Source of the DNA: Spinacia oleracea
Taxonomy: Eukaryota; Streptophyta; Magnoliopsida; Caryophyllales; Amaranthaceae
DNA: 64,000 nucleotides
Assembly (NCBI RefSeq): GCF_020520425.1
Contig: NC_079487.1
Coordinates: forward strand, 3,209,501-3,273,500
Direction of reading: 5' to 3'
Below are positions 30,325-55,820 of the stretch, piece after piece (position 1 is the stretch's first letter; every line of letters starts with the position of its first letter). A program made the translations under genes and the position numbers. Under the pieces are notes generated by a model that worked only from the letters and a program-made list of their open reading frames with translations, searched no databases and had not been told where the DNA came from.

Positions 30325-30333
30325 CAAACATAG
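30325..30333. repeat. MULE 9-bp target-site duplication (left)
   Basis: CAAACATAG, identical to 55821-55829. Confidence 0.9.
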
Positions 30334-30382
30334 GAGGAAGTCTTTGTGTATACTAGGTATACCATTTAAATGGTATACTAGC
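30334..30382. repeat. MULE left terminal inverted repeat
   Basis: About 49 bp, imperfect against the right end. The conserved parts are GAGG--GTCT, GGTATACCAT and ATGGTATACTAG. The last two form an internal palindrome. Confidence 0.85.
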
Positions 30383-31310
30383 AATAGAATAATACTAAAA
30401 TCAGAAGTGGGGTCATTTTAGTTAGAAAAGAAAAAGGAAATGGGGGTTAATTCTTAGCGCCATGGAATTTTGGTGAAATTGTAGAGAGAGAGTGAAAATT
30501 TCCCCAATTGCGCCAATGTCACTGCTGAAATTTTAGGCGGCAAAAATGGTGAAATTATTTGCATAATTTTTTTTCCGTAAACTTTAATTTCTATTCTGTT
30601 TAATTTCTTCCCCCAATTTCTTCCCCCAATTTCATAATTATCTTTCAGATCTGGTTTGTTTGATTAAAAAAATTTGAAATCCGTATGAATGAAGCCCTCG
30701 AATGTGGAAGCTGGGCTCACCTTGTGTATGGTGTTTGTCATGAAGTAGGCGTGGATAAGTTGGCCAAAAATTGGTAGGCGCCGGAAATGAGAACTTCTAA
30801 GGAGGGTGAAGGAGTGGTTGGAAGCAAAAGGAGGTTGCAATTAAACCAGGTATGTTTCCAAGTTTCCGTAATTAGTTGTAAATAAAGAAAATATTTCATT
30901 TTTTCATACAATAAATGCATTCAACTATTAGTGGAAAAATAATTTCGAAATATTTATTAAAACGAGGTCATTCAATTCAGTGAGTAGAGACTGAGAATTA
31001 TTTATGGTATGAATTTTTTTATTATCCATGTTATAAATTTGAGTAATGTTGAAATTACGGTTTGAATTTGGTTACGAAATATGGGGGAAAAATTAGGATA
31101 AAGATGATTGGGATAATAATTAGGATCTCAACGATGATTGGAATAAAATTTAGGGTATTGTTATTGATAAATTGTGAAATTACGGAAAACATTTTGTTAA
31201 AGGAGGAAAAGGCAATGGGGAACACGAACTCATTGGTAAACATTTTTAAGGTTTGGTATCGGAAGCCTGTACCATACTCCAAATTAAACACAATAAATTT
31301 CATTATGTAG

Positions 31311-34300
31311 GTTCTTGAATTGGATGGGGAGGAAGAGTTGTTGGATGATGTAGGGGAATATTGTAGTGATGATGGGTTTGACGAAGATGATGGGGTAGGT
31401 GATGGTGTAGAGTCTGAAGATGGGGGAGTTGAGGAGGTAGAAGTTGGTGAAGAACGTTGGGAAGATGACGAGGATGATGTTGTGGATGATTATGATGAAG
31501 CATTAGATGAAGGAGATGAATTAGATTAAGAATTGTGTATTGAAAATGATGATGACCTGAATGAGGTTAATGATGATGATTATGATGAATCTGGAGAAAT
31601 GGGAGTGGGGCGAAACACTACTTGTATGGAGGATGGAGACATTGGCGGCCCTGGTGATGGAGATGGGGTTTCAACCATTAACGCAGATATGTATACAACT
31701 GCTACGAAGCGGAACAAAGGTCTCGTTCTACCGACCCCTTCTGTTGGAATGTCTTTTGCTAATTGGGAAGCATTGAATAACTATTTTCGGTCCTATGGGG
31801 AGCAACAAGGTTTTGGTGTAGTGTGTATGGGAGGGAATAAGAGCGGGGTGAAAGACAGTGAAACGGGCAAATCGAATTCCCTGAGGACCTATGTTTGGAG
31901 GTGTGAGTGTCATGGAAGGCCAAAATACCGGCGGATGGTGAATGGCAGGGTAGTTACCTGCGCAGAGGAACCAATTCTTAAGAGGAAGACGAAGAAGTGT
32001 AGTTGCCTTGTTATGCTATATGGGGCTCGGACCAAAGAGAATTTATGGGTTGTGAAGAGTGTTGTTACTGAACATTTGAACCACATTCCCACTCCTACCA
32101 AGTCCAACCATATTTCCATGTTCCGGGTCAGGAAAATAACTCAGACAATCCTGAAACAGATTGAAAATGATCACGATTCAGGTGCACCTGTGGCTCAGAT
32201 TTTCAATAACTTAGCGGGAAGAAGGAATGGTGTAGAGAATATTGGTTTTACGAAGAAAGACGTGCATAATATTTTGAATAGGAGGGTGCGATTGAGGCTA
32301 CGAGATGGGGATGCTGTTGCAATGATAAATTATTTAGATAAAATGACAAAGGATAATCAAAAAAATTTCCATCTCCACCGGCTTGATAAAACAGGGAAGT
32401 TGCAGGATGTAATGTGGGTTGATGCTCGTAGCAGAGCCGCGTATGAGTATTTTGGGGATGTGGTTTGTTTTGACTCCACGTACTTGACAAACAAGTATGA
32501 GTTGCCATTTTCGAACTTTGTTGGGGTGAATCACCATGGGCAAACAATTTTGCTTGGATGTGCATTAGTGTCTCATGAAACCGCGGAAACGTTCGTTTGG
32601 CTCTTTAGGGCATGGTTGTCTTGTATGGGGGGTAAAGCTCCCGCTGCTATTATGACCGACCAGGATGCGGCTATGAGGAAGGCAATTAGAATAGCAATGC
32701 CAATGCCTAAAACCAGACATCGTTGGTGTATGTGGCATATTATGCAGAAGTTCAGCCGAAAAATGGGTTCGATGACTGATTTTCCCCAAATAAAAGTTGC
32801 CCTACAGAATGTCATATACAACAGTTTGACCCCTGTTGAATTCGAAGAAGGTTGGGCTGAAGGGGTGGAAACTTTCAAGCTGAAGGAGGCTAAGGAAAGC
32901 TACAAGTGGCTAGTAGGTATTTATCATGGTTTGGTACTACTTTTAATTCTAATCGTGATATGGTAAAGTATACATCATACGAAACCGCGATAACATTTTG
33001 GATTGGTACACGTTTTCATTTAATTATGTACCAAACTGCAATAAATATTTGATTTACATGTGCAATGTGGTAGGTATTTCATATATGGCATTGTCTTTGG
33101 TGAGAATGTCTTTCATGTTCAATTCCTTTGTTGTTAATTTACCTAATGACCTTTTTTAAATGTATAGGGTTGTATAATCAGCGAGAAATGTGGATACCTG
33201 CATATGTGAAGCATATTTTTTGGGCGGGGATGCAGACGACTCAGAGGGTTGAGAGTATTAACAATTTCTTCGACGGGTACTTGAAGAAGAATACGAGATT
33301 ATATCAGTTTGCTCCTAGGTACTGCAAGGCCATGGAAAGTAGGGCCAATGATGAAAAAGCTGCTGATGTGAACTGCTGTCGTTTTACTCGGTCTTTGGTT
33401 GGAGAGTTTGCTGTGGAGAGGAAGTTCCAGAAACTATATACGGATGCGAAGTTCGTTGAAGTCCAGATCCAATGTATGCGGGTATGTTACGTAACACCTA
33501 TTACTTCGAAAGTAGTTTCTGATGTGGAGGTTGAGCATACGGTGTCTGACAAAGTATGGGTATGGTCCAAGTTCTTGAGAAAGGAAATATCTTTGGCAGG
33601 CCGGAAGCGTATATACGTCGTGATGTTCAACAAGGAGACCTCATTTGCAAAGTGTGACTGCAAACATTTCGAGTGCCACGGCATTATGTGTAGGCACATC
33701 ATTAAGGTGTTGGACGTGGAGGATGTGGAAAATGTGCCTGCTGGATATATAGTTGACCGATGGAGGAAAGATATACAACGCAAGCACACTCTTGTGAAGG
33801 TTGCTTATCATGATCCCGAGAAAACAGAAGAAGTTAAGCGCTATGACCGGATTATGAATGCGGTGGAACCTGCTGCCCTCCGTGGATCACTTTCCGAGCA
33901 GAAGTTGGATTTGGTCATAGAAGGTATTATGAATATTGTGTTACGTCTTGATGAGAGTGATGCTCTTTCAGCAGTTGGTGATAACGAAGCTGGTGCACTG
34001 ACTTCCGGGGGGAACAGGATGGCGATTGTTGGTCCTACGACACCAGGCTCCGTTAACAAACCTCCAAACAGCGTTGGGGATGATACTACCACACTTACCC
34101 CCCTGTTATGGTTAAAGATCCTGTTCCGCGCGGTGGTTTAAAGGCTCACAGGACTCGTAAAAAAAGATTTTTACAACCAGGTGAGAATAAAAACCCCGCA
34201 AGGAAGCAAGTCAAGAAAAACAAGAGTGTTGTACCACAAGGCTTTCCAGAAACCAGAAATTGTCAGAACACTTGCCTTCCTCAACACAACTACGTGCAGC

Positions 34301-35241: not shown

Positions 35242-36052
35242 AATTGATTTCCATGGTGAAATCCACCCAATAAATCTACCTTTGTGGTACGTTATTTGAA
35301 GTTGATTGACTTCCATCCAATAAGTCTGAATTATGGCGTGTTACCATATGTGCATTCCTCTGTAACCATATGATTCAATTTGTAACCCAATTTGGGGTTT
35401 ACAGGATGTCGTAACTTAAATAAGGTTACTTTAGATACTTTCGTAAACTGAATTTTCATTATTGACACAGAACTCTGAATTACTTCGTATTTTCTATGTA
35501 CTAAACCATGTATAATTCGGTAATTTGGTACCCTACTTCGTGTTTGCTATGTTTTACAGTATTTGTGTTAGTGTTTTTGCGGTATCTGTTATAGAACGAC
35601 TATTTGTTAAAGTTATAGGGGTACTACATCTTGTCGTAACACCAGTACTTTTTTTTTAAAATAAAGACGAATAATACGTATGAAGAATAAGAATAAGACT
35701 AGTAATACGAAAAGCATCATCCGCAAAATATTACATGGAAGGCAGCGCCGCCTAGGTTGAAACTATAAAATACACCTATTACATATCCGACGAGCTAAAG
35801 GTAGGCAATGTCTGAACAACAACAAATAACTTACCTGTTACTATTACGCCATAGAAGTAGGATAGAAAAATCTACCCAAACCTAATAACTAAATACGTCA
35901 TGGTGATGAATACTATGCCGATAAATACTACGCCGTAGTTAAGCTAGTACCTAACTAAGTTCTTATACTATAGGTAAAAATCACCCTACATAATAAGTAC
36001 TACACACACACTGATGGGGAAAATTGTGTATAATAGCTCCAGACTCTGGCGC
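35242..36052. other. MULE intergenic region
   Basis: AT-rich, no gene seen. It carries a TTTGGTACC motif at 35524 and the likely 3' ends of the convergent transposase and chimera-1 genes. Confidence 0.6.
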
Positions 36053-37364
36053 TTACAGATCCAGTTTACGCGCAAGTGGTTGCTTCTGGAGCTTCACCGG
36101 CTGCATAAATCAAATAAACGATTACAATCAACTTAAATGTTTTCTAATTGTCTACATTACATAGTTCGTATGAGACATAATAATAGCGGTAGCGGTACCA
36201 TACTCACCCATAACGGTACCATACTCACCCATAAAATACCGGTATGCATTGTAATGCAGTACTATGTACACCTGTTTGGTACTATGAAGTCAACCCAATG
36301 CAGTAAGCATACCTGTTTGGTACCCTAATGGAAGTACAAGACGGTGTAAAACAAAGCGTTGGGAACCGAAATAAGAAATTAAATGAAGTACCTCAAATAA
36401 GACAGTAAACAGGAGGTTGGCCGAACCCAAATCAGATTCATTGTAGTTTGGTAACAAGTCGTTTCCCCGCCACATAAGGACTACCCCTCCGCATTGATTC
36501 TCAAACCATTTGGATTGATATTCTCCTGGTAAGTTGCTAATTAGCTCCATGCAGTCGTTGTTACTAATTCGGGCTTCAGTAACGACCATGAGTGATGGAT
36601 GGTGCCTTGCAAACATCTCAAAGAAGGTGGCTCTGAATGAGGGTCTGGTCATGGATAGGGCGTTCCATGCAACGACCACCGTACCTCGTGGTATGAAGGC
36701 GGAAACCTCCGTCCCAACCATAGTCTTTCCCTCTAAGCACACCTCAGTGTAAGCCCGTCGTTTGGTCTGAAAATACCTTGGAACAACAGTAATTTCCACC
36801 CCAGTAAACGTATGTTCCACACTCATAACATGAATAACATGAGCGTTGGATGCAATGAAAATGTGGCTCCTGGAATCAGGGAAATTGTACACAGGGAGGT
36901 CGTCCACAACTACAGCTGGTCTAGGGTCTACCATAGCGAGGAGGTTGTTTGGGTACAACAACCACGACCCTTGTGCAGCAAGCCGGTTGGAACCCTAGAT
37001 GCATATTAGGGTGGTCCGTAATTAAAGGGTGGTGTGCAGGCAGGATTTTACCTGCAGAGGTGACCATCACAGAACAAGGGAACATAACAGGGTGGTAAGG
37101 CAACTTACTAACGGCACAATAAAGCTGGATATTCAGGTCAGTTTTGATTGCGTGCGGCACACGGAGACCCTTTTCTGCGTCTTCGACGTCGATGGAGTAG
37201 TAAGTGGTGTTGTAGTTCAATTCAGGCCCGTTTGAAGATTTTGGCTGCTCGAAGTACATTATGGCTTTTGGGTGGCAGAGTAGTGTTCGGCTGCTATCAC
37301 AAACAAGGATAGATTTGCCTTTGTCCATTTTTGGCAGGTTTTCCGGTGGAGAATTTGGAAACAA
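36053..37364 (-). pseudogene. Chimeric LINE-endonuclease-like gene, copy 1 (deleted and frameshifted)
   Basis: The first of three paralogues on the minus strand. It starts MFPNSPPENLPKM at 37364. The N-terminal family region has LLCHPKAIMYFEQPKS, ELNYNTTYYSIDVED and NMHLGF. Compared with copy 3, roughly 20 residues (around W-R-F-L-D-W) are then missing with a frame change (about 36960-36990). It resumes at YPNNLLAMVDP. The C-terminal part shows VVAWNALSMTRPSF, VTEARIS and GGVVLMW, as in the N-terminal half of LINE AP-endonucleases. The predicted intron is 36101-36391. A 15-residue exon (36100-36053) beginning PVKLQKQ and ending KLDL provides a basic tail. It probably encodes no full protein. 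Confidence 0.75.
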
Positions 37365-37716
37365 TTAGGGTTTGAACAGCTAGAAGGAGAAACAAGTGGG
37401 TTGGTTTGAGGAGTCCCCACTGGAAGGAGGTTGTCAACTATAAAGGGAAGTGAATACTACACTAAAGTTGTCGGTGAAAAAACGTAGTGCAATAAATTCC
37501 TAACAACCTAGGTGGGTTAAAAAGTTATTACGTCGTTTGGTACCACCAGGTTTACTGATCTTATTACTTGGTACCGCTCAGAGTACTTTTCCAGTAAATG
37601 CAAACTACTGCAATTTAACGTTATCTGCATAATTGTTCTTATTGTTGAGTGAAATCAATAGTTGAATGTTGAACACAATTTATCTGATTTTGGTGATGTT
37701 TTCGTTTGATTCAGTA

Positions 37717-38110
37717 GTTTGGGACACTAATATTGTCGGTATGGAACAACAGACTACTAAGAATCGGATTTTAGGGTTATGTGTTGTCGTTACTATGACT
37801 TGTATAGGACACTATTATTGTCGGTATGTAACAGTAGACCACTAAGAATTGGATTTTAGGGAAATGTGGTTTCGTTATCATAAGTAGTTTGGGACACTAA
37901 TATTGTCGGTATGGAACAACAGACTACTAAGAATCGGATTTTAGGGTTAGTTACTATGACTTGTAGGACACTAATATTGTCGGTATGTAACAGTAGACCA
38001 CTAAGAATTGGATTTTAGGGAAATGTGGTTTCGTTATCATAAGTAGTTTGGCACACTCATATTGTCGGTATGGAACAGTAGACTACTAAGAATCGGAATT
38101 TAGGGTTATG
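37717..38110. repeat. Two-part minisatellite upstream of copy 1
   Basis: Five units of about 80-88 bp alternate between A (TAGTTTGGGACACTAATATT..., with CAACAGACTACTAAG) and B (TAGGACACTATTATTG..., with CAGTAGACCACTAAG). Each contains TTGTCGGTATG and GGATTTTAGGG. A units start near 37713, 37883 and 38042; B units near 37801 and 37961. It is thus a higher-order repeat of about 160-170 bp. Confidence 0.88.
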
Positions 38111-39110
38111 TACGAGTTAGTGATATGTTTGAAGGTAAAGGGTGTAGGGTACTTTAATGTGTTAAAAGTCGGATATTATAGGTCTTTAATTTGCCGTGAC
38201 CTATTCGACACTAGGGTGTCCGAACATTGTTAACTCATATTTGAAATGACTCCAAACCCAATATTAGTAATAAAATGTAATGATTACATTTGTGAACTTT
38301 TATTAGTATTAGTACCTCATTAATAGGTTGTTTACGTCTTACAATATAATGTATTTATGTCTTACAATATGTGTTTAAAATTGAAAATTCTCACGTCTTA
38401 GAATAAAATGTGTTTACGTAACAATATAACAATGTAAGATTACATGGTTGTCTTAATTTACGTATGTTATGATGTTCGATGATGTTATCCTGATATTTAT
38501 ATTCAAAATATCAAGTGTTATTAATTTATGCAAATACGAAAATTGAAATTTTATGACTTCATGATGACCACGATCTGTACGCATACGACCATACATTACA
38601 CTTAGTAAGACTATTACTACATAATTATATACATATGTGGTTATAAAATGATAATTACCTCCTACGTGAATGAATTAGGTAAATCTAAGGTAATCGGATT
38701 GAATGGGTTTTTGAAATCAACTATCGGGTTCTTAACACTACTAAGGTTTGTGAGCGTGGTCGGATTTATACTGTCATTGGTTATATTTTCAACCCTAGAC
38801 CCAAATGAGATTGGGGCGACTTCTCGACCGGGTACACATTCAGTCGCTTAACCAATACGAATAATTTACCAATGCGATTAATTAACCGATACGATTAATT
38901 AACCAATACGGTTAATTAACCAATAACAAATACGATACATTAAAAACTAATTCTAAATTAAGGTCCCAAACGTACGAAATAGCCTATCCCAAACAACGTA
39001 GTAATAGGAGAATTCCAAAATTAATTTGAAACATTGAGCGGGAATTTTCCCGCCTCCCTCAGTAAAAATTCAAAAGTGTTGGAAGCTTGTCAAAGAATCT
39101 TTGACTTTGA
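38111..39110. other. AT-rich intergenic region of MULE
   Basis: No supported gene. A 67-codon frame at 38648-38851 is hydrophobic in its middle but has no homology that I recognise. At 38851-38935, units of about 17 bp (AACCAATACGATTAATT) repeat about four times. Confidence 0.5.
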
Positions 39111-39120
39111 CCACCACAGC

Positions 39121-39127
39121 TATATAA
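39121..39127 (+). promoter_or_regulatory. TATA box of GRF zinc-finger gene
   Basis: TATATAA about 75 bp upstream of the ATG at 39199, in the context CAGCTATATAAGCC, typical of a plant core promoter. Confidence 0.6.
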
Positions 39128-39198
39128 GCCACAAGAAATTGGCCACTTCCTAGCTCATTTTAAATAATTTAAAATCAAATAACGCCGGGTTGTTCCTA

Positions 39199-39567
39199 AT
39201 GTCTCATAGTTCTAATTCCCTAAGGTCACCGCCGGCAAACGTGGGATGCGTAGATGGCCGGAAGATGCTCTGGTGCGAGACGATCAGTTGTCCAACATGC
39301 ATCACTTGCATAACTGAACTAAGGATTTCACAGACAACCACAAATCCACATAAATTATATTTTAAATGTCGATTTTGTGGGTGGTTCCGGTGGGTTGAAG
39401 ATCACAATTTAATAACAGAGGAAAACATGTTGCCATCGCGTCTTGTTGATGTTGGGCTGGACCGCGTCCTCCACCGCCTCGACAAGATTGAATCATGCAT
39501 TTTGATGTTGTATAAATTATTCGTCGTTTGTCTTATAGTTTTTGTGTATTTTCTCCTCCCAAAGTAA
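39199..39567 (+). CDS. GRF zinc-finger protein with C-terminal membrane segment
   Basis: A 122-residue protein starting MSHSSNSLRSPPANVG. Residues about 28-70 fit the GRF-type zinc finger: CPTC, then T-T-T-N-P, YFKC and CGWFRWVED, with cysteines in CxxC...C..C spacing. A short helix (LDRVLHRLDKIES) follows, and then a hydrophobic stretch (LFVVCLIVFVYFLL) that would make a single membrane anchor at the extreme C-terminus. GRF fingers bind nucleic acid in several DNA-repair proteins, and small plant GRF/coiled-coil/TM proteins of this shape are common but uncharacterised. The TATA box is at 39121. It is divergent from chimera copy 1 and lies just upstream of the 3' end of chimera copy 2. Confidence 0.8.
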   Translation: MSHSSNSLRSPPANVGCVDGRKMLWCETISCPTCITCITELRISQTTTNPHKLYFKCRFCGWFRWVEDHNLITEENMLPSRLVDVGLDRVLHRLDKIESCILMLYKLFVVCLIVFVYFLLPK

Positions 39568-39777
39568 ATCGACGTTTCCTTTGTAAAAGATCGTAATAAT
39601 CAATAAAAAGCGTATTTTAAGAGTTGGACAATTTCATCAATATCTTTCGTATGTAAATTACATCTGTGTGTCGTATTCCCGTAAGTTTTGTTCGCGTTAA
39701 TTGGGGGACTGTTTTTAGTTATTATGGATTAGGGAAAGCTAATATTACCTTTCATTGGGTCTGTCCGTCTGCAACGC

Positions 39778-41149
39778 TTAGCACATCAATAGACGTCGTT
39801 TTGCTCGGGAAGTCATTCCCGGGATCACAGCCTACGTACGAATAAAAGGAACAAATTGTTATATGTTTTATCAAACATTATTGAGCTACAATGAACCACA
39901 AACATACATTCCTCCCTTGTAACCCCCATTTGTACACTATCAAACATTTGGTGTTTTATATGCCCTCGTTTGGTATAGTAATACCCCAAAATACGTGTTT
40001 TCTCGGTCAAATGAGTTTTATATGGATCGAAAATGCATGGCCGAAACTGAATGGTTTGGTACACCATGTAGTTATTGTTTGTGTACCAAACCGTCGTTTG
40101 GAACCTTATCTCATACTATATGTCTATGTAAAACGGAAGACACTTACATGAAATTGTAACGACGCAAGGTGTTTAGGTTTTGATCCCCCCATTTGACAAA
40201 CGGGATCATGCCGGTACGTAATCGATGGCTGGACTTGGTTGACAGACCAAAACATAACAACACCCCCGGCTCGTCCTTCGGGACCGAATAAGTCATGTTG
40301 GTACGTCCCAGGCAGTGTTTGTGCGATAAGCAGTAGTTGAGGTTCATTTATTCTTGACTCGGTCACGATGATAATGGACGGTGTAAGTTGGGAAAATATG
40401 CGATAGAAGTGTTCCTTGAACGAAGGCCTGGTTACACCTCTAGCATTCCAAATGACCACTAACATTCCCTTTGCCAGTAGTGTCGGTGTTGTATGACCGA
40501 CGTATTGTTCTGTTGATCCCAGGTGAATATGGTGGTAACCCTTTTTATACAGGTTCCCTTCACGGTAGAAGACATCAACGTCAATTGAGTGAATGTAGTT
40601 AGAGTTTTTCATGACATGAAGTCCATCGGTGTAAGAACCAAAAAATATAGGGGTTTTTTTGATTGGTACAGTGTGTACCGGTGTTTGGTCAATATGTAGT
40701 ACTGGAATGGGATCAATGAAAGGTAAGTAATTATAAGGGATTACCTCAAACGCCTCAAACTCGGCCCTACTCCTAGCTTCCCACTCTATGTAAGCTAACA
40801 AACCACCTGAAATACGACCATCCGAGTCTTCGGGAGTGGGGAGGTGGAATGGTAATACACGGTTGTTCTCCGTTACCATGAACCTACCGGGAAATCCTTC
40901 TTTGTCCGATGTTTTTGAAAATATTGCCCGTACGATAGTGTCCCTATCAACGGGGTTCCACTCCTCTTCCCCTATGATCTCGTCATAGGTCTGAAAGTAA
41001 AAGGTCCGATTTATATCCAACTCATATCGCATACCCGCAGCCGGGGAGAAGTACATTGCTTCACGAGGATGATATAGGAGGTTCCTGGTTGGGGACGTTT
41101 CATTGCTTACACATTGTTTTAAAACGTTTTGGGTTGGTGATTTTGGCAT
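39778..41149 (-). CDS. Chimeric LINE-endonuclease-like gene, copy 2
   Basis: The predicted first exon 41149-40148 (334 codons) starts MPKSPTQNVLKQC. The N-terminal family region (about 1-230) includes LLYHPREAMYFSPAA, DINRTFYFQTYDE, GRFMVTENNRVLPFH and PVLHIDQTPVHTVPI. Residues about 240-320 read MLVVIWNARGVTRPSFKE, IIIVTESRIN and GRAGGVVMFW, equivalent to the first part of the LINE AP-endonuclease domain. The Asn and Glu of the active site are kept, but the C-terminal half with catalytic Asp/His is absent. After an intron (39832-40147), a 17-residue exon carries the basic SRAKRRLL and a stop at 39780-39778. Endonuclease activity is therefore unlikely. A nucleic-acid-binding or regulatory role is a guess; the N-terminal region has no match I recognise. 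Confidence 0.75.
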
Positions 41150-41613
41150 TAGGCTTCCTTTGATTAACAGTATAGGGGGACTTCGGGTTTGATTGTAGGG
41201 GAGGACCTCAAGTCAGTCAGTCGTTAGTGATAAATAGGGCAACTAGTAACTTTAATTACGGACGTTGGTGTTAAAGTACTTTGTAGTTATTGCATTTCCC
41301 CTAAAAAATTTATAATACATAAACAATACAAATTCAGATACTTTGACCTTGTATTTTTTTCCTCGTATTTTTTGTGAATAGTACATTACACAAGTAAGTT
41401 TATTTTATGTCTTTTCATTAATATACTCTAGTTACGCCAACTACCCTTTATTAAAGTTGTACTTGGACTTAAACCCCAACCACCAACAAAGGTAATCATT
41501 CATTGTTGCATTCCTTATCCTGTACTTCTATAATTAAAATGAGGCATTCCTAGGTTTTATTTCATTTTGCATCCAACTTTCTATAGAGATTTAACTAGAA
41601 ACTACTTCCAGTC

Positions 41614-42738: not shown

Positions 42739-43265
42739 TGCTAATTGGTACCTACACTTCGCTAATATGGGTACCAAATGATGCGGTTTGGGATACACAA
42801 ACATTACGTAATCGGTGTGTCCTCGGTAAGTTTATGTTTTTTATTCTGAAAGTGTTATTACTTTAGCCCTAGGAGGTTTGCAAAATTCTCCCAAAAGCTT
42901 GTATTTTTTGGTCGTTTTCAGTAAGGCCCTAGGACTGTATTTGTACTATGTAATCGGTATTTGGTACACACGGTAGTACCAAATAGCCAATTCGTACTTT
43001 ATGTGAATTTATATGAGTTCACAATTAATATGTTATTAACATTACATTTGTCATGATAGTCTAGAATTACTAATAAATAAACCTTGTTCAATTTAATACA
43101 AATTCTAACATTATATATCATAATACAACACTTAAGAAATTTAATTCTTCAGCTTACACAACACTGATTATAAGAATATAGCCGACTACGAATACAAACC
43201 AATATAATAAGAACCCTAGTTGTTTATAATTGTTGTAGTTGACTCACCCTCAATCCTTGCCATCT
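42739..43265. other. MULE intergenic region
   Basis: AT-rich, no gene. It contains three TTTGGTAC/GTACCAAA motifs (42771, 42960, 42976) close to the end of the orphan gene. Confidence 0.6.
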
Positions 43266-44725: not shown

Positions 44726-45394
44726 GCTAAAAGGTAGTAATGAGAAATTGGCTTTTGAGTGAGGGGGAAAACACTTATGGCTATAAGTTTGTATAAAGGG
44801 AGAAGATTAAATGAAGTTAAACTAGAACAGGTAGTTGATAGCCATTACTTACAGTGGTTGAAAGTAATTAATGTGACTCACATTTCCCAACGTTTTTACG
44901 TAAGTTAGTAAATGAACTTCAAATCTTTACGTTTGGAACCCCAAACTACCAATTAACTAGGTTTGGTATACGATGATTTATTCCCGTATACTTTTTTAAC
45001 CAGTATGTACTCAAACAAAACAATACAAAATTATTTATATACACACTTATAAATACTCCGTATCACACCTGGACCATAAATACATGAAACATATATGTCT
45101 TATACAAAAGGTTTAGTTAATAAACAATCGTTGAGAGTGTGGATTGTTTGGGACTCTGGATTTAGGAGGTTGAGACAGCATAACCTTGGGAATGGTACTT
45201 TATGGGGATAAAACAATGACAAACTTGGCGTGGTAGTTTTTAAGTTTGGTAGGCGGGTATTGCGCACCATACCCCTGATGGGTAGTTACATATAGAAAGG
45301 CAGTTTCATTATAATAATAAAGGTAGTTATTCATTTCCACATTATTTGGATAAGGACGGACCCAGGGATCGTCTTCTATAAGTACGATAATAAA
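44726..45394. promoter_or_regulatory. Divergent promoter region, copy 3 / coiled-coil gene
   Basis: A 670-bp spacer between two diverging starts. AT-rich, with a TTTGGTATAC variant near 44972. It probably holds both promoters; no confident TATA box was chosen for either. Confidence 0.45.
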
Positions 45395-46550: not shown

Positions 46551-46560
46551 CTATAAATAA
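46551..46560 (+). promoter_or_regulatory. TATA box, twin orphan gene 1
   Basis: CTATAAATAA within a block (about 46515-46565) containing GAGGTGGCAGTT, TGACCGTTA and CTCT ahead of it. The same block and spacing precede the second twin. Confidence 0.75.
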
Positions 46561-46637
46561 CACTTAGTATGAGGGAGATATTCAAAAACTTTATTCTCTC
46601 TTCACATCTCTTCACAACAAAGCATTTAATTTGCAAA

Positions 46638-47213
46638 ATGGAAATTCCACCAAATGCATACCCCAACGTCTGCCCTAACCACCATTACCGTTATGATCAT
46701 GTCGCACAACACAAAACTGCTCGCAAACCAGATCTCATACAAGAATTCGAGATCGACCTCGCGGAAAAGTACGGCCATGCGGTGGTTGCACCAGACCAAC
46801 ACGCTGATGAACAGCCCACGAGCGTCGATATTGTTGCAGGAGATGAGAATGTAATGGGTATCATATGGTCTAAGATGGACAAGCCAACTAGGGCTAATTC
46901 AGTGTTCGCATGCAAGAAGTGGGCCATGGAACTGATCAATCAATACTACCGCCTCAACTTCGATTGCAGATTCTCCGAAAGAGTACGTACCGTTAATTTT
47001 CGATACTATAAGATCCTAGAGTACAAAGAAACAAATGGCACTTACACAAGGATTAAATATAAGTGCGTCTGTGACCTGTGGAAGGAAGCATCAAATCCCT
47101 TCAACCCTAGGGAAACGCTGCTCAATGTACCGAGTGACATTGATTTCAATAATTTCGATCAAAGTGTGAACAATGCAAACTACAATTGGAGGATTCAGTG
47201 TGGTGCCATGTAA
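46638..47213 (+). CDS. Twin orphan gene 1
   Basis: A 191-residue protein. The start MEIPPNAYPNVCPNHHYRY is chosen over an upstream in-frame ATG (46569) because the tandem paralogue shares this start and length, while the upstream part lies in the leader after the TATA box. Conserved between the twins: QHKTARK, FEIDLAEKYG, IWSKMDKPTR, VFACKKWAMELINQYY, SERVRT-NFRYY, YKCVCDLW and VPSDIDFNNFD. Several conserved Cys, Trp and Tyr suggest a folded domain, perhaps secreted-like in composition but without a signal peptide. No family is recognised. Confidence 0.8.
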   Translation: MEIPPNAYPNVCPNHHYRYDHVAQHKTARKPDLIQEFEIDLAEKYGHAVVAPDQHADEQPTSVDIVAGDENVMGIIWSKMDKPTRANSVFACKKWAMELINQYYRLNFDCRFSERVRTVNFRYYKILEYKETNGTYTRIKYKCVCDLWKEASNPFNPRETLLNVPSDIDFNNFDQSVNNANYNWRIQCGAM

Positions 47214-47754
47214 TGTCTTGGAATTGGAATTCTCTACCCATTTTCGTTCTGTTATTTCAATGTCATAGTTTTAGGTGTGTGATTGTTTTCTTTTCATCTT
47301 ATGTTTTGCTTAATTTTATTTAAATGCCCTAGTGTGAAGTGTGATTTGGTGTGTTTGTCATCCTCCTTTAGATTATGTTATTGTAATGTAAAGGTGTGAT
47401 TTGGTTTATTAACTATGATTGCTAAAATGAAGTATTTTTTTAAAATTTGTATAATGGTAATTAGGTTTTCAATAACGAACGACAAATAACACTAACAGTT
47501 TCAAAGGTCATGTTATAATTTCGTCGAATGGTCTACGATCACCCTTATTCCGTAGGCATATGGTACCATTGAGTAAAGTAGTACCAAACCAATGAACAAC
47601 ACATGTTTGGTACTGTTTATATTGCGACAGAGGTAGCAACGGTATAATTTTTTCAAATTAAAGGAATAGTGTAAGGTTAGCATAACGAAATATGGGTGTT
47701 TTTTTTTTATTAAATGGATAAGGTGGCAGTTATGTGACGGTTAAAACAGGCGCT

Positions 47755-47764
47755 CTATAAATAA
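47755..47764 (+). promoter_or_regulatory. TATA box, twin orphan gene 2
   Basis: CTATAAATAA preceded by AGGTGGCAGTT and TGACGGTTA, as in the first twin. It is about 65 bp upstream of the start codon. Confidence 0.75.
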
Positions 47765-47827
47765 CACTTCTTGTAAGGGTTATTTCCATAAACTTCATTG
47801 TCTTCACAAAGCATTTCATTCGAGAAA

Positions 47828-48403
47828 ATGGAAATTCCGCCAAATTATTACCCCAAAGTCTGTCCTAACCACCGTTACCGTTTCGATTATACGGAACAAC
47901 ACAAAACTGCTCGCAAACACGACCTCATACAACAATTCGAGATCGACCTCGCGGAAAAGTATGGCTATGCGGTGGTTGAACCAGACCAACACGGATGTGC
48001 GAAGTCCAAGAGCGTCGAAATTGTTGCCGGAGATGCTAATCTAATGGGTGTCATATGGTCTAAGATGGACAAGCCAACTAGGGGTAATTCAGTGTTCGCA
48101 TGCAAGAAGTGGGCCATGGAATTGATCAATCAATACTACCGCCCCGACTTTGATTGGAAATTCTCCGAAAGAGTACGTACCCTTAATTTTCGATACTATG
48201 AAACCCTAGAGTACAAAAAAACAAATGGCACTTACACAAGGTTTAAATATAAGTGTGTCTGTGACCTGTGGAGGGAAGGGTCAAATACCTTGAACCCTAG
48301 GGAACCACTACTTAATGTACCGAGTGACATTGATTTCAATAATTTCGACACAAGTGTGGGGAATGCAAACTACAGTTGGAGGATTCAGTGTGGTGGCATG
48401 TAA
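47828..48403 (+). CDS. Twin orphan gene 2
   Basis: A 191-residue tandem paralogue of the gene at 46638 with exactly the same length; start MEIPPNYYPKVCPNHRYRF. Promoter, 5' leader and 3' flank are also duplicated, so the event copied about 1.2 kb. Differences cluster in the middle (EPDQHGCAKSKS against APDQHADEQPTS), while the flanking blocks are almost identical. Both frames are open, which argues for selection or a recent duplication. The spacer between the twins contains two GTACCAAA-type motifs (47581, 47606). Function unknown. Confidence 0.8.
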   Translation: MEIPPNYYPKVCPNHRYRFDYTEQHKTARKHDLIQQFEIDLAEKYGYAVVEPDQHGCAKSKSVEIVAGDANLMGVIWSKMDKPTRGNSVFACKKWAMELINQYYRPDFDWKFSERVRTLNFRYYETLEYKKTNGTYTRFKYKCVCDLWREGSNTLNPREPLLNVPSDIDFNNFDTSVGNANYSWRIQCGGM

Positions 48404-49790
48404 TGTCCTGGAAGTCTGGCCATTTGCATACTATTATTTCAATGCCATAGTGTTAGCTGTGTGATTGTTTCATATTTCACAAATGTATTGCTTTAGTTAT
48501 TTTTTTAATTACCCTGTGTGTTTGACATCCTCCTTCGGCATAATATTTCCTTTGATTTGGTTAGTGTGAATGTAAAAGTGTGATTTGGTTAGTTTAAACA
48601 TATGTTTATGTGTTGATTCCAGATTACTCTACAAACAATACACAAGATCACATTTTTCAATTTTCAAATTCAAATTAACGAGAATTAACCACAATAAAAA
48701 CCCAACTACCGAACTTGATACCAAACGGGTGATAATTTACGGCTGATAATGTACCAAACCAAGGTATTGTACGTTTTTATCTCATATTAGTATTCAGTTG
48801 AGTCCGAATCAAATAGAAGAGGTATACCAAACTGTAACCCTTATAACATATGATTCATATTACCGAAAATTAAATAGTTCATTTACAAAGAACCGTCCAG
48901 AATCATATTACCCAATGGTAACGGGGGATAATGTAATCCATGATTCGTATTACCCTCTTCGCTTTAAATAATGGAAACTACTTCACACGATCTGCATAAA
49001 TATATATAATGCTCTTGTTTTTTTGGATGGATTACAGGATGAATTATACAAAATGTAGAAATTCGTGCGCCAGTACTTATGTATCTCAACTCGTGTGCCA
49101 GTACTTAATATTTTGTAGCAACCGTTAATTTTACTCTTAATATCTCAACTCGTGTGCCAGTACTTATGTATCTAAAAAAACTAATGTGTCAAAATTGTAT
49201 TTCGATACAAAATTACCAGCCTGTCGAACGGGTCGGACCTGACTTAGGACTTGATATAACCTTTTTATCCTTTATAACAATAAACACTGCTGAAATGAAA
49301 AGTAGTTATTGACTAAATTCATAAACACCGCAAATTTTGATTACTGAGGTCACCGTGTTTTGTCTAACTCTTAATCATCCAACTTTTGTAGCAACAATTA
49401 CTAATGTTCGTGTGGTACATATCTGATCTTGTTTGGTACTCAATTTATGCTTGGTACCATGCAAAGCCGGAACAAAGTTCAGGCTGTACCAAACTCGTAG
49501 ATTGTACCCAAACTTTTCTAATAACGGTACCAAACAACCTATTAAGTACCACAACACGTACCAAACTCGTATTGTAAATCTTTAATGCACGATACAAAGC
49601 ATACCACAAAACTTACAAAACATACCTGCAAGCAATGAATCCCATCTCCTAGGAATAATGTGAGTATCAAAAGACAACAACTATGATTTAGTTCACGCGT
49701 TAATCACAATTCAAAAAATGACCAGATAAGTGTGCAATTGTTTTCTCGGTTAAAAACCCTAAACGTTAGCAGATGAAGCACGACCAAACA
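48404..49790. other. MULE intergenic region with motif cluster
   Basis: No gene. CTCAACTCGTGTGCCAGTACTTA repeats locally around 49075-49170. A cluster of TTTGGTAC/GTACCAAAC sites lies at 49432, 49486, 49527 and 49558, just beyond the 3' end of the Ulp1-like gene. Confidence 0.65.
49432..49566. repeat. Cluster of TTTGGTAC/GTACCAAAC motifs
   Basis: Four exact copies in 135 bp (49432-49439, 49486-49494, 49527-49535, 49558-49566) plus near matches at 49451 (TTGGTACC) and 49504. This is the densest group of a motif scattered through the whole MULE. Confidence 0.85.
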
Positions 49791-52700
49791 TCAACGAACT
49801 GGGCAGTGGGTTGCAACGATTTGGGGAAGAAGCGGGCGGCAGGAGTTGAAATCTGAATTCAAGTGAGACAAAAACAGTGCCTTCCGAGCTATATTGATGT
49901 CCCCCTGTCCCAAAACAAGTTTGAAAAGACAACTGTAAGTTTATAGTGTGGGGGTATAGCACTTACAGTTACAGTAGTAGAGGACTTACCACTTGCATCG
50001 TCTTTGTAAATGCCCTTGCACTTTCCTGGATAGCCATAAGCATTACTATTCCACACACATGACTACAAAGCCAAACAAAACATATCAGTAAGACTTAAGG
50101 TGGTTACTCGACGATGAAAAGGTAGCATAAACAGTACTTATCGTTGTAGTCAGGGAAGCTAATGGAGTCCAAGGGCCAAGTATGCATTTGCTTCAACTTC
50201 CAAACAAGAGCTGCATTATACTGCGTGTCCCTCCAATGTAGAACGTACTCCACAGCTGCTATCTGGAATGAGGAGACCGTATTATGTTAGTACAATAAAA
50301 TGAGTGAAGTCAATGTTCTTAAACTCCCACCAAACCAGGTTAAGTAAAAACTAAGTAAAAACTACATATCACATGATTAGATACCAATTTTTTAACATCC
50401 CCAGAATGCTCGAAAGCAGGATTAGTATACATGCTGTCAATGAACCATATCTTCTGGTCTTTCAGTGCAAAAGCAACACACCACCAATGTCCGTTGTCCA
50501 CAACTGGAACATAGACCTGGACATGATAATTACAAATTCTTACAAATCGCATACCTGTGTGTCGCGGACAATTAATACACCAAAAACTAAAATAACAAAT
50601 TGTACAAGGACGTTCCTCAAAAAGAAGACAGATCCCGAACTGACCAAATAGAGAGCCATCATTCAACGTAAAAGGCATGTAGGAACTTATTTCCAAATCC
50701 TTAAAATACGGCCTCATCACTCAGTTATTAGTCCGAAAATAGTCAGACACATGTTGTTGGCATATAATCAGACATCTAAACATGTAGTAAAAAGACTAAT
50801 TAGACTTACCACAGATATATCAGCTGACACAATCTTCTGGAGAGGGGTGGACCACTTCTTCAGCAGACCAGCATATGTTTCCCTCGTCTTTAATTTCTGA
50901 TACTGTAAAGCACAACAACCAAAAACTAAGCAACCTCGTACGCTTACTTTATTGATTTCATTAATGGTGAATATTAGGAGAACATACCGCAAATGAGGAG
51001 TCCAGCATGATTCTGCGAGAATTCGTTGGGTATTCCAGAGCCCATTCCCTGTTGTATATGTTTGCAACGGCCCGAACGTACTAGGAATGCACGTACTCCC
51101 TAGGACGCACAACCGAGTAGCACATCATCCGATTTGCATCATTACCATCACACTCGATAAGCATGGCCCCCCTGCAAACATAAAATACAGATACAAGTGA
51201 TTATCATTACATAAATGTACAACGTACATTAGTGTATACAACGTACTTAAGTGTTACATGAGTAAAAGTTGTAGAACGTACTGCTCTTTCCCTTTAGGAT
51301 TGTATGACTCCACATAAGCTACTACGTCACTCTCAAGTTTTGTCATTCGTACTCGCGTCTGCCGATAGCGTGTTTTTGGGTTTGTTCTCGGAATCCTTAG
51401 GATCAATTTCTCCCGTGGTCGTTCTTGGTCATCAGTTTGGAGATTCTCATCAGTGGTCTTCCCTTCAGTGGGGTTATCTTGACTGGTGTTCTCTTCACTG
51501 TTCTTATCTTCAGAGGGGTTCTCTTGAGCGATGTTCTCCAAGGGCGATGCTGCAACCGTTCCTTGCACAGGACCATTAGCCGGTCCCTCATCATCGTCAT
51601 CATCCCTGTTATTCGGCCCCCCATCCTTGACTCCACTATCCTGCTCTTCCGGCTCCTCAACATTCTCCTCACCATTGTCTTTATCATCCTCTTTGTCTTC
51701 AACTACACCCAGCTGTCCCACCTTCTCCGATGACATTCCATCTGAAGGTGGCCCGTCACCAGCTTGAACCTGTCCGTGCTGATGTGTCTGGTCGACCGGG
51801 TGCTTGCTTGTTTCTGGCTCAGTTGCTACTACACCAACATCATCAGCAGTGTGGACCAAAGGTACATCACCGTGGCTGTCAGCAGTGTGGACCAAAGGTA
51901 CATCACCGTGGCTGACCGGGTCTAGGGGATTCATAACTGGCACACTCCCATGAGGGCCCACAAATACACGTCCCCCATCAGACGGTTGCAACTCCACATC
52001 GGAATCGTCATCGGCATCCAACTCTGTAAGCACCTTATTGACAGACTTGTCCAACGGCATAGCCACACCATCAACATCTATCGTCAAATGATCGGTAGCA
52101 TGATATGACCTCATTCCTCTTTCACGGGATACGCCCCGGCGATCTTGGAATAATGGAGCAAGCTGCCCCATAACCTAAACAGAAAAAATGGTAAAGTAAT
52201 TCATACACACAGACATGACTCCTCCAGACCTTGGTGAGTACTATTTTTTACTAGTTAAACATGTATGCATGTTTATCACTAACACTCAATATTTGAAAAT
52301 TATCCCACTACAGAGAGTACCAAACAACATCAATATCATTCATATGGTACACCTAAAGACATTTATGAGTACTATTTGAAATCCTAAAACATTTATGGCT
52401 ATTAATCACTAACATTAACATAAAATTGAGGAAAGCGTTTAACTTCCCATACCATCTCTGTGACCTCCTGAGCTAGGGTGCGTCTCCATTCTGAAGAAGT
52501 CATATGTGCTACCATCTCAGCAACCTCTACTGCGGGAGACCGTCTACCCTCCCTGCCGTAAAGGGGATGAGGATCCCCGTACACAACATCAACAGTCTGG
52601 AAAGATTATAAAAGGAATAGATTTCAGTCAGATTAGATAATACAAAATTTAATATGACAAATACGACCGACTAACAACCAGTTACCCACCGTAATCCTTC

Positions 52701-54699
52701 CATAATCTTCACTCGCTTTCCTATCCCGATTCTTGGCCTCATCCACTTCCTCCTGTGTCCAGACTTTGATCCTGGGAAACTCATCCCATCTCACAGGATG
52801 CCTGCATAAATGGTGTAGGTTGAAAATCTATAAAACAAATCCACTTTCAGGTAAGGCACTGTAATATAAGACAGGATACTAACACCACAACAATAAAAGT
52901 ATTAACCTTTTATATAATTTAAAACATTAAATATTTCAGTAAGATAGACGCACCAGCAAAAACAACACACAACCACCAGTCCCAGCGGCATACCCCTGAT
53001 GGTCTATCTTCCGCTGACAGGCGTCTCCGTAGTCTAAAAGCCATGTGTGACAAAACTCACACCAATTGTACAGTGATGCATTCTTTGCCACGGAAACTGC
53101 ACCTAGCAATTTTAAAGACATGTTACCCCCATCGGTAGAAGGACATAAAATCTGCCCCAGCAACACAATCATGAAATTTTCCATGAACGAGGCCCTATCA
53201 CGCTGATTAGCCAGGGGCTTTATCTTTCCTTCACCGTCAACCGGCCCTGCCAATTCCTTTACAGATTTTGCTATGATTATTGTGCTCTTTGAGGTTGATG
53301 TATTCTTTTCGCCATAATTGAGGGCCATCGCTTTAAGGGTGCCTGGAGGAAGATCAGACTCCTTCACTGGCACCGGAAGACCGCTGTTCTGGAATCCGAA
53401 TACATATTCCCAATGGGAAGCAGTTATCGGCAACACATGGCCGTCCCCTCCAACAAGGTAACTGTTACCCCCATCCAACCGGGACATCAGCCAGTAGCAC
53501 AGCTGCCTAGGTAGCTTGGATATTTTCAAATCCAACATCCCCCCCGAAACCCATTTTCCTAACGCAACTTCTCCTTGACTCATCAAAAGCAGCAATAATC
53601 TTAGAAAATGCATCCGTGCGACAGATAACGCTTGGTTGATACACATAATAGTTTAAGTAAAAAATTGAAATTATCAACTGACAAAACCTAATCAAAACAC
53701 ACAATTCATCTTTAAATAAAGGATCAATAGTACCTTCCGGCCACAATTAGCCCGCAGAGTAGCAACTACCACGCCGTGAAACTTCGCATACTCACCCCTA
53801 GACATATGATGTTTGGGAATTGGTACCTAAATATGAAAAAAACATTAGCATCAACTACGTAGAAAAAACATTATTATACCATAAAAATCCTTAAAAACAA
53901 TGAATAAATTTCAAAATTATATACCCGCACAAACATCCTCCTGTTATTCCCTCTGATCGCCTTCTGTTTTGCAGGGGGCTTTCCTTTTGCTACCCCTGTT
54001 TCATCAAACTTCCTACCCATCTGCTTCATCGCAGGAAGTATCGTCTTCTTCACAGGTCTCCTTCCCTCGTCAACATCATCATAATCCTCTCTACGCCTCT
54101 TCCGCATCATCTGCAGATGTGCCTTCTTCTTCAAAGCATTCTGCCCGACCTCCTTCCAACTCTTCCCTCTTTTCTGAACGCGAACAACAACATCCTCTCC
54201 TTCATCTTCATACCCACCATCCATATATTCACCGTCTTCGTCCTCTATATCTTCTTCCTCCTCTACTTCATCGTATGAAATAACCCTTCTGCTTTTAGCA
54301 GATTGCCTTTTCTTTGGCGCACGTTTCACTGTTCTCTGGCATAATTCATCCTCGAATTCTTCGTCCTCATATATCTCATCCTCATATTCATCATCTTCAA
54401 CATCTTCATATGCATCCCCGTCAAAAACAGATTCTTCACTGTCATCCCCAGACAGCGATCGCCCTTCCTCATCTTCTTCCATTTCTTCATCGACGACAGG
54501 GTCTTTGCCCTTTAGCTTACTATTCCGAGCAACTTCCACGCGTTTTTCCTTAAAAACAATATTGAAATATATATCTTGTTAATAAACGTATAACAATATA
54601 CATACTATCAATTATCAGCAAATACGATACACTCATAAAATGAGCAGTGACACTCACCCTAGGTTTGCTGCTGCTACCACTTTGTCCCTTGATAACCAT
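49791..54699 (-). pseudogene. Ulp1-like (C48) cysteine protease gene of the MULE, with a frameshift and a stop
   Basis: A minus-strand gene of about eleven exons. The start ATG at 54699 (MVIKGQSGSSSKPR) is followed by an acidic/basic exon 54548-53925. The next exon starts VPIPKHHMSRGEY. A region of KMGFGG, LDLKISKLPRQLCYWLM and HWEYVFGF resembles the domain often placed before Ulp1 in MULE proteins. A seven-G run (53539-53545) breaks its frame. Then comes a Glu/Asp-rich linker (about 52171-51260) with two SHGDVPLVHTAD repeats, and a premature TAG (51081-51083). The protease core follows: VYVPVVDNGHWWCVAFAL with catalytic His, IWFIDSM with Asp, and HVCGIVMLMAIQ with the predicted Cys after an intron. 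The last exon begins GDINIARKAL and stops at 49791. SUMO-protease-like folds are carried by several plant MULEs; cellular role unknown. The triad is intact but two lesions lie upstream. Confidence 0.8.
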
Positions 54700-55770
54700 C
54701 CTACAAATACAATTTTACCAATCATTATACCATGCATACCTTCGATATAACAGTACCAAACACATTGGTAATTTAGGTTTGGTACCAAAGAAAATATCAA
54801 ATCATATATCCTTTACCTAAATGTACCAAAATATGTAATATTTTCCATTTGGTACCAGATCAAGTACCAAACAACAATAAAACAAACAAAGGTAGTTTTA
54901 AAAGCATGCCATCACACGAATTAAACATTAATCAGGCACCCCTTCATATCAGTTTAACTTTACCTAAACGAAGGCTTATCAAATTACTTAATTCGACTAG
55001 GAAAGTAATTCAACAACAAACATCACAGTATAAAATTCGCATAATAACCACAAATTAACCACCAATTAACCCCAAAATATGAAAAGTCCATAAAAATAGC
55101 TACTTCATCACTAAATTAAATATACACACTTAAATTTCCATAACAAGAGCTACTTCAAGTAATTAGAACATGATTGTGAAAAATATTCACTTTCAATTCA
55201 TCAGCAACACAATTGTCAAACAAAATGGTGAAACCCTAAAAATCAAATCAGCCCCAAAAAACTGTGAAAACATAAAATATTACCAAAACAACAACTAAAC
55301 ATCAATTCATACAGAAAAAAATTAACTTCACCTGGAAAAGTTGAGCAGTTCGTTAGTTAACAAATATCACCGATTATAATCGCCCTGGCAAACACCCTTT
55401 TTGGAAGGTATGAATTGGAAACCGGTCACGAAGTGGCTAACCTTCTAACGAGAGACTGACAATTTGGGAAGTTCTTGCCGGAGAATTTGGAGGGAGAACA
55501 ATTGAGCGGGAGAGCACGCAAGGAGGAAGAAGACGAAAGAACCGTATTTTGGAAAGAAACTGTAAAAATGAAACCCACCTGATTTTTTACATTACATTAA
55601 ATTAATAATCAGTAAATTATAAAATAGAAATAAAAGATAAACTCAAATTAAAAAAAAAAATTGAAATTCAAATTTTGGAACAGATTCTTAGAGAGAGAAG
55701 TTGAAAATATCTGAAGTTGTAATTAATGGTGGGTCACCCACCTTTACTCCACTTAAATTTACCAACATGT
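54700..55770 (-). promoter_or_regulatory. 5' region of the Ulp1-like gene
   Basis: AT-rich and non-coding, probably 5' untranslated exon, intron and promoter. It holds a second dense motif group: GTACCAAAC at 54753 and 54864, TTTGGTACCAAAG at 54778, GTACCAAAA at 54823 and TTTGGTACC at 54848. Confidence 0.6.
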
Positions 55771-55820
55771 CCCTAGTATACCATTGTTATGGTATACCCA
55801 GTATCGATTTAGACAACCTC
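55771..55820. repeat. MULE right terminal inverted repeat
   Basis: The reverse complement matches the left end with scattered mismatches and a one-base length difference, including the GGTATACCAT / ATGGTATACTAG palindrome. Confidence 0.85.

Follow-up and report, generated by a model that had tools for sequence, protein, structure and literature searches.

The locus considered here raises the question of why a short DNA word recurs throughout the non-coding parts of one transposon, and which protein reads it. The window is a 64-kb stretch of the Spinacia oleracea genome (contig NC_079487.1, C1 of the 894 Mb searched), and the element within it is a Mutator-like element (MULE) of what we call family A, in which an earlier note had listed the octamer TTTGGTAC at 25 places and proposed that a cargo protein recognises it. 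The best form of the word is the 9-mer GTTTGGTAC, and across related spinach families this word is tied to the clade of one element gene, encoding an Ulp1-like protein, rather than to the transposase. Comparison of copies and families indicates that the word very probably works as a protein-binding site within the biology of the element itself, with the Ulp1-like product its probable reader, whilst the chance that its purpose is escape from silencing, an idea taken from analogous systems, appears about even. The element and the two genes on which the argument turns are as follows.

30334..55820: MULE transposon, family A, 25,487 bp, recognised by target-site duplication, inverted repeats and MULE transposase
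49762..54699, minus strand: Ulp1-like gene, with N-terminal open reading frame (ORF) 52939-53652 and a weak C48 match at 50343-50720, according to our exon model
31530..34141, plus strand: MULE transposase, two main exons, with MULE and SWIM domains and a sub-threshold FAR1 match

The octamer occurs 28 times in the window, 26 times inside the element and twice outside it (5655 and 20182), with dinucleotide shuffling of the entire window giving an expectation of 3.1 (standard deviation 1.9, largest 8 in 100 shuffles) and an order-3 Markov model one of 3.4 inside the element. The expectation of 0.8 given earlier was therefore too low, yet the excess holds; the 25 listed places are correct save for 33029, which is 33028, with 54782 overlooked, and the site at 5655, thought to be the only one elsewhere, is joined by that at 20182. 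Under the same Markov model GTTTGGTAC tops the ranking of the element's 9-mers, with 19 copies in the element, none in the other 38.5 kb and 0.71 expected. Allowing up to one mismatch gives 52 sites inside the element and 10 outside, with a mean of 8.8 (largest 17) in 200 shuffles of the element, and the commonest one-mismatch forms, GTTTGGTAT and ATTTGGTAC, differ at the outer bases and occur five times each in the element and never outside it. That every site lies in an intron or between genes was borne out, with all 26 octamers non-coding by an approximate exon model, built from selection among copies and by-eye splice sites, that assigns 12,941 of 25,487 bp (51%) to coding sequence; one variant, GTTTGGTAA at 36446, is coding by this model. 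The outermost sites stand 917 bp (first) and 948 bp (last) from the element ends, leaving these terminal stretches free of sites and the motif without subterminal clustering. Among the papers listed by a literature search with the 9-mer, the titles suggest chance occurrences. The sites are listed below.

31251..31259, plus strand: variant GTTTGGTAT, the outermost left site
32929..33036: sites 32929 (plus) and 33028 (minus) with one-mismatch 33001 (plus), in the transposase intron, splice sites placed by eye
35523..35531, plus strand: site ATTTGGTAC, with a one-mismatch partner at 35498 (minus), spacing 25
36274..36323, plus strand: sites 36274 and 36315, 41 bp apart, with flanks alike
36446..36454, plus strand: variant GTTTGGTAA, coding by the exon model
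37535..37543, plus strand: site 37535
39968..40091: sites 39968 (variant), 40054 (plus) and 40083 (minus)
42771..42984: sites 42771 (minus), 42959 (plus) and 42976 (minus), converging spacing 17
43537..43545, plus strand: site 43537
44961..45252, plus strand: variants 44961 (GTTTGGTAT, conserved) and 45244 (GTTTGGTAG, not conserved)
47581..47613: inverted pair GTACCAAAC-N15-GTTTGGTAC
48718..48832, minus strand: sites 48718 (variant), 48751 and 48824 (variant)
49431..49566: cluster of 49431 (plus), 49486, 49527 and 49558 (minus)
52317..52325, minus strand: site within an intron of the Ulp1-like gene
54753..54872: six-site array directly upstream of the Ulp1-like gene, 54753 (minus), 54777 (plus), 54782 (minus), 54823 (minus), 54847 (plus) and 54864 (minus)

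The pair 36274/36315, judged by its similar flanks, likely arose by tandem duplication. A tandem repeat at 37682-38111 (unit ~85 bp, higher unit ~160 bp) contains one-mismatch words such as GTTTGGGAC.

Comparison with six other copies of the element, covering 10.1 to 25.5 kb of it at 95-98.6% identity, reveals that the sites are retained, with 129 of 146 site-copy cells intact over 33 sites. Only 23 of 1314 motif columns (1.75%) are changed or gapped; windows at a distance of 12-80 bp average 4.8%, with none of 5000 draws as low, and the sites have thus changed 2.8-fold less than nearby DNA. For the 19 exact sites the figure is 9 of 738 columns against 4.5% (P 0.0006), with six of the nine changes falling on the two outer bases, and composition-matched 9-mers anywhere in the element are changed at 3.6%. 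The transposase-intron sites 32929 and 33028 are unchanged in all six copies. Taken together, the copies indicate that the word is kept in non-coding DNA by selection. The earlier note had held that its claim would fail if other copies lacked the enrichment, or if the word were equally frequent in coding DNA and unrelated genome sequence; instead, the motif is present in the six copies and in a sister family, coding DNA as assigned by the exon model is without it, and it is rare in the flanking genome, with five octamers in 47.4 kb of unaligned sequence from the six copies (flanks, inserts and family-specific parts) and one in the 42 kb that flank as many as 30 left ends.

The sister family, B, is represented by a 20-kb locus at C1:4359400-4379399 (L049 and L051), and its gene order is that of family A as far as it was read. 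The cargo genes needed for this comparison are the following.

39154..39567, plus strand: GRF-like zinc-finger protein, its Pfam match having an E-value of only 0.75
41788..42735, plus strand: the 41.8-kb gene, family unassigned, with relatives P0002 and P0003
45296..45865, plus strand: coiled-coil-like protein, a label from our own reading and without tool support
46557..48403, plus strand: twin genes, copies 46557-47213 and 47792-48403
36293..44806, minus strand: three paralogous chimeric genes, 36293-37364 (two ORFs), 40127-41212 and 43697-44806

Identity between B and A is 69 and 79% for the transposase exons, 54% for GRF, 77% for the 41.8-kb gene, 89% for the coiled-coil-like gene and ~40-62% for the chimeras, with the DNA of the two families alignable at coding parts, around the coiled-coil-like gene and over one 43-bp piece, and hardly anywhere else in the non-coding DNA. 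The commonest 9-mer in the 20 kb of family B is nevertheless GTTTGGTAC (n=12). The transposase intron cannot be aligned between the families, yet both carry the motif there, as sites 32929 and 33028 in A and, in B, as two inverted copies separated by 15 bases. In B the motif stands partly in tandem repeats, in A largely outside them.

Pairs of the word were used to follow it through the genome. The inverted arrangement GTACCAAAC-N4..30-GTTTGGTAC was found at 105 places against one for the reversed control, with gaps of 15, 16 or 6, and one of 9, among the 50 places listed; same-strand pairs numbered 101+86 (187) against 18+11 (29) for the control, and converging pairs 54 against 2. The pair lists are complete on C1-C3 and partial on C4-C6. 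On C1-C3, 133 of 171 pairs lie within 40 kb of an Ulp1-like gene at least 50% identical to that of the window (inverted 35/48, same-strand 80/94, converging 18/29). Viewed from the gene, a genome search with the Ulp1-like ORF 52939-53652 gives 153 matches, and a pair lies within 40 kb of 20/20 listed C1-C3 loci at >=80% identity, 18/21 at 60-79%, 1/1 at 40-59% and 0/22 at 30-39%, amounting to 39 of 42 loci at >=50% identity and none of the 22 distant ones, with 1.4% expected at a random position. Second fragments of one locus were omitted or counted once in these counts, and the candidates scored in the first look were 150 of 564 from the Ulp1-like search and 117 of 1128 from the transposase search, the low-identity classes thus being incomplete. 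Loci combining a transposase of at least 70% identity with a related Ulp1-like gene carry a pair in 20 of 28 cases on C4-C6 and in 56 of 66 overall (partial lists). A pair does occur at one locus whose Ulp1-like gene is distant, C5:10063043; its length agrees with that of a dispersed repeat of 36-bp spacing.

Two further families separate the candidate genes from one another. At family E loci, motif pairs lie ~0.8 kb from an Ulp1-like ORF of 68-70% identity, with a transposase of 74-75% identity 6 to 24 kb away, and neither the 41.8-kb gene nor GRF nor a chimera was found within 120 kb of the five E loci among the candidates scored (all 102, 150 of 414 and 111 of 578 respectively). A sixth E locus, C1:69437662, was excluded as it adjoins a B copy, and an E-like locus at C1:21761679 is without a pair. 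Family F comprises five loci (C1:70.59M, C4:125.88M, C5:29.93M, C6:66.34M and C6:95.43M) with a transposase 77-83% identical to that of the window (that of B being 79-82%) and an Ulp1-like gene only 35-36% identical. No motif pair was found near any of the five in the lists available, pairs and not single sites being scored, with complete lists for one locus of the five: all three lists cover that at C1, and the other four are covered by the long-gap same-strand list (complete to C6:117.97M) and by the converging list up to C6:66.3M. The pair closest to an F locus is a converging one at C6:66296932, which the count left out; it belongs to a family A copy and stands 47 kb from C6:66.34M, beyond the distance used. 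The automatic F list held seven rows, two of which were judged mis-paired and dropped, C6:66302874 (the family A copy just named) and C6:68554064, the latter with a 72% Ulp1-like fragment 25 kb away and a 77% ORF 38 kb away.

The transposase is thus not the best candidate reader, being kept in family F where the motif pair was not found in the lists available, and GRF and the chimeras are not, since among the candidates scored they were not found at the five E loci that have the motif. With the 41.8-kb gene likewise undetected at E and with F setting the transposase apart, the Ulp1-like gene fits best of the genes tested. The proposal that a cargo protein recognises the word therefore stands insofar as the motif follows one gene family of the element, whereas the transposase, GRF and chimeras that it named fit less well. 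At C2:81.43M and 69.77M, C4:21.85M, C3:136.02M and C5:22.4M there are distant MULE-like loci in which an Ulp1-like gene of 30-39% identity is joined by a relative of the 41.8-kb gene at 35-39%; around the C2 and C3 loci the motif pair was not found.

The arrangement of the sites in the window is itself regular. The two starts of an inverted pair GTACCAAAC...GTTTGGTAC are separated by 24 bp in all three cases within 60 bp, a converging spacing of 17 occurs twice and a same-strand spacing of 41 four times, with jittered sites yielding a bin of at least four in 0.06% of trials (0.5% with one-mismatch sites). Over 21 neighbour pairs within 60 bp, allowing up to one mismatch, the mean cosine at a period of 10.5 bp is 0.79, equalled by none of 2000 jittered sets, and a scan of periods has its maximum at 10.25-10.5 bp. 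Octamer-only sites give 0.73 (12 pairs, P 0.001) and same-strand pairs, which need no fitted offset, 0.72 (9 pairs, P 0.0015). Two-mismatch sites measured against strong sites with the offset fixed beforehand give a mean of 0.41 over 32 pairs (P 0.0005 within 40 bp), with P values of 0.0045 at 60 bp and 0.036 at 100 bp. Genome-wide, same-strand spacings give a mean of 0.36 over 21 distinct values, picked by hand from printed rows (P 0.008), and those inside this MULE lineage 0.56 (n=11, P 0.003). This phasing suggests cooperative binding on one face of the helix.

An element protein binding in arrays appears to be the best explanation of the word, because selection maintains it, it accompanies a single gene clade across families, and its sites are paired and in part phased. 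On the account that we favour, the product of the Ulp1-like gene (49.8-54.7 kb) would bind GTTTGGTAC, with many copies of the protein lined up next to one another on intronic, promoter and intergenic DNA; the bound array would mark the transposon as self, and this marking would keep off or reverse silencing by the host, as VANC does for the VANDAL elements of Arabidopsis. This VANC-like account, in which GTTTGGTAC is bound by the element's Ulp1-like protein, marks self and counters silencing, seems to us evenly poised between right and wrong when taken whole. A more elaborate version is offered tentatively, as a possibility that we rate below evens: reader and word may form exchangeable modules of self-address that change together whilst the transposase remains constant, with A, B and E using GTTTGGTAC and F having another reader and having lost the word whilst keeping its 77-83% transposase, with binding cooperative and on one face of the helix, and with unrelated repeats exploiting the word.

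Several points weigh against these proposals. We infer both the identity of the binding protein and the effect of its binding on silencing. The pair is absent at three of the 42 related C1-C3 loci and, in partial lists, at 10 of the 66 transposase-Ulp1-like loci genome-wide, and the other 38 of the 171 C1-C3 pairs lie far from any related Ulp1-like gene, many of them parts of two repeats distinct from the MULE, the L050 type with its 6-base spacer and another whose spacing is 36. Loci within one family share their history, leaving families as the independent units, which are few; F is a single lineage with only one locus where all pair lists are complete, and the E comparison covers the transposase, the Ulp1-like gene, GRF, the chimeras and the 41.8-kb gene. 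The C48 match (PF02902) reaches an E-value of 0.0099 and 16.2 bits in one exon, below the curated cut-off of 20.7, and the Pfam families DUF1985 and DUF287 gave no match at E<=1 with P0001 (N-terminal 408 amino acids of the Ulp1-like protein) or at E<=0.1 with the separate ORFs. Given the weak Ulp1 match and the unmatched DUF1985, the candidate is described as working like VANC and not as a VANC member. As for phasing, the best of 25 usable scrambled words (two mismatches, free offset) reached 0.51, the 12 neighbour pairs of family B fail with a mean cosine of 0.02, its exact sites give 0.28 over seven pairs within 100 bp, and spacings outside the MULE give a weak 0.13 (n=10); phasing is strong in the window, modest in the lineage and not general.

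Repeated short subterminal binding sites for an element protein are found in Spm, bound by TnpA, and in Ac, and the spinach sites resemble these in being repeated, but theirs lie near the ends, where the spinach element has none within 0.9 kb on either side. Another element protein (transposase, twins, coiled-coil-like protein or chimeras) might bind the word and so govern transposition or expression, in the manner of TnpA in Spm, with the Ulp1-like gene a passenger of the lineage. The gene order common to A and B and an E comparison confined to the transposase, Ulp1-like gene, GRF, chimeras and 41.8-kb gene allow for this, as does the place of maize MURA and Spm TnpA among transposable-element proteins with demethylating activity, according to the available text of PMC10706983. 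Set against the site-free ends, the well-kept transposase of F, near which no motif pair was found in the lists available, and the motif at five E loci where GRF, chimera and the 41.8-kb gene went undetected, such an account is unlikely, though we take it seriously.

It is more doubtful still that a host transcription factor, such as an R2R3-MYB, binds the sites and drives the element genes. GTAC is a known core for other plant factors, which counts for such a host factor. In addition, GTTTGGTA fits the MYB46 element (A/G)(G/T)T(T/A)GGT(A/G), as given in the available part of PMC3756741. The other 15 MYB46 words are, however, hardly enriched, with 20 in the element and 22 in the flanks (0.78 against 0.57 per kb), the conserved C at position 9 falls outside the MYB46 element, and the sites are spread over introns and intergenic DNA and tied to one gene clade. 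Generic MYB46-type sites were rejected, the degenerate element as a whole not being enriched.

Very improbable is an action at the RNA level, whether through hairpins folded from the inverted pairs or through signals for splicing or small RNAs: an inverted pair could fold into a 9-bp stem whose loop measures 6 to 16 nt, but same-strand pairs are in excess too, sites occur on both strands and also between genes, and an isolated site such as that at 52317 is unchanged in all three copies that cover it. That the sites are functionless repeat copies multiplied by tandem duplication, as the tandem repeats of B and the duplicated look of 36274/36315 might suggest, can scarcely be credited, and such duplication was rejected as the main source of the family A sites, their flanks being mostly dissimilar (33 of 528 flank pairs above the 99% point of the null, 5.3 expected, the top pairs on inspection largely sharing a second motif copy) and the motif columns changing less than the flanks.

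The favoured account, of an Ulp1-like reader that counters silencing, has its closest parallels in Arabidopsis, and the comparisons here rest on the available parts of the sources cited. VANC proteins bind short motifs in the non-coding DNA of VANDAL elements and induce loss of methylation (PMC5735166, PMC10398659), and a family-specific short motif enriched in non-coding DNA, as in such systems, is what the spinach element has. As with VANDAL21 and VANC21 of Arabidopsis, whose motif is YAGTATTAY, the spinach word spans introns and intergenic non-coding DNA of a MULE and is specific to family and, as we propose, to protein, and motif-bearing tandem repeats are shared, albeit only partly and in family B (PMC5735166). 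The VANDAL21 motif is also present in terminal non-coding DNA, and the words helical, periodic, spacing, cooperative and dimer are absent from the VANDAL21 main text as available, whereas helical spacing is seen in the spinach window (PMC5735166). The spinach system further differs from VANDAL21 in motif and host, in its family A sites mostly outside tandem repeats, in an element of 25 kb with inverted repeats and many genes, and in a candidate protein lacking a Pfam DUF1985 match. VANDAL6 and VANC6, with motifs AGTTGTCC and AGTTGTAC, offer a parallel in that the motif differs from that of a related family, and the VANC6 motifs are found in AT9TSD1 too, although that repeat has no relation to VANDAL, much as the spinach word occurs in L050-type repeats without MULE similarity (PMC5735166); motif and organism differ from VANDAL6, and the binding in spinach is a prediction. 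In Kaonashi (KIU) MULEs, Ulp1-bearing VANC genes recognise motifs in the non-coding DNA of their own kind and act there as VANC does, and the Ulp1 domain of these elements is strongly conserved in eudicots (PMC13317346). The spinach element resembles them in having an Ulp1-like gene beside the transposase, a likeness that follows a review's description and not a comparison of proteins (PMC13317346), and differs in its weak C48 match. Searches of the literature library used returned nothing on spinach MULEs or on Mutator-like anti-silencing in spinach.

Self-versus-host DNA recognition by transposons is best known from the Arabidopsis VANDALs. If the proposed account is true, spinach, distant from Arabidopsis among eudicots, would supply a second system with its own word and several sister families, in which F is a natural experiment separating the reader candidate from the transposase; the co-evolution of reader and word would become directly testable, and a new sequence-specific tool for altering plant DNA methylation might possibly follow.

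Two repeats other than the MULE also carry the word. L050:2047-2129 (C3:64.60M) consists of two 54-bp repeats, each containing TTTGGTACCAAAC-N6-GTTTGGTAC, in 4.5 kb without MULE similarity, and the same 6-base gap recurs at several genomic places with differing spacers. The second repeat (C1:11352316, 34439319, 104497761 and others) is dispersed, has GTTTGGTAC twice at a distance of 36 bp, shows related spacers and lies far from listed Ulp1-like genes of at least 50% identity. By analogy with AT9TSD1, which shares the VANC6 motifs, such unrelated repeats may exploit the same reader, or the likeness may be coincidence.

The element itself is a MULE on the evidence of its PF10551 domain (transposase match, E 3.5e-33), a 9-bp target-site duplication and terminal inverted repeats, the latter 49 bp long, degenerate and 78% complementary.

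30325..30333: left target-site duplication CAAACATAG, 9 bp, from the raw sequence
55821..55829: right target-site duplication CAAACATAG, 9 bp, from the raw sequence
30333..30381, plus strand: left terminal inverted repeat, tool-reported coordinates, GTTTGGTAC absent inside
55773..55821, minus strand: right terminal inverted repeat, tool-reported coordinates, GTTTGGTAC absent inside

Each inverted repeat (30333-30381 and 55773-55821) contains a nested palindrome, GTATACCAT...ATGGTATAC, which is perhaps a transposase site. For the left 468 bp of the element the genome yields at least 43 match rows, with identities of 75-100%, and a crude estimate of the ratio of non-synonymous to synonymous substitution rates (dN/dS) of the transposase among copies is ~0.33-0.36. 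Pfam and PDB sequence searches of the cargo returned only the transposase and weak matches, protein database searches with cargo proteins gave 1, 2 and 2 matches, and predicted structures were unusable, with mean predicted local distance difference test scores (pLDDT) of 32 for the 41.8-kb gene and 43 for the twins. The twin proteins have two relatives in the protein database, and one stretch of them, which no tool matched, we take to resemble an F-box. P0003, listed above with the 41.8-kb gene as a relative, matches family B at 98.7% identity, and the data set from which it comes therefore probably includes spinach DNA. Relative to the spinach proteins P0002 (42412-42414) and P0001 (~53546), the frames of the window copy are broken, and this copy, judged by those frames, may be unable to make two of its proteins.

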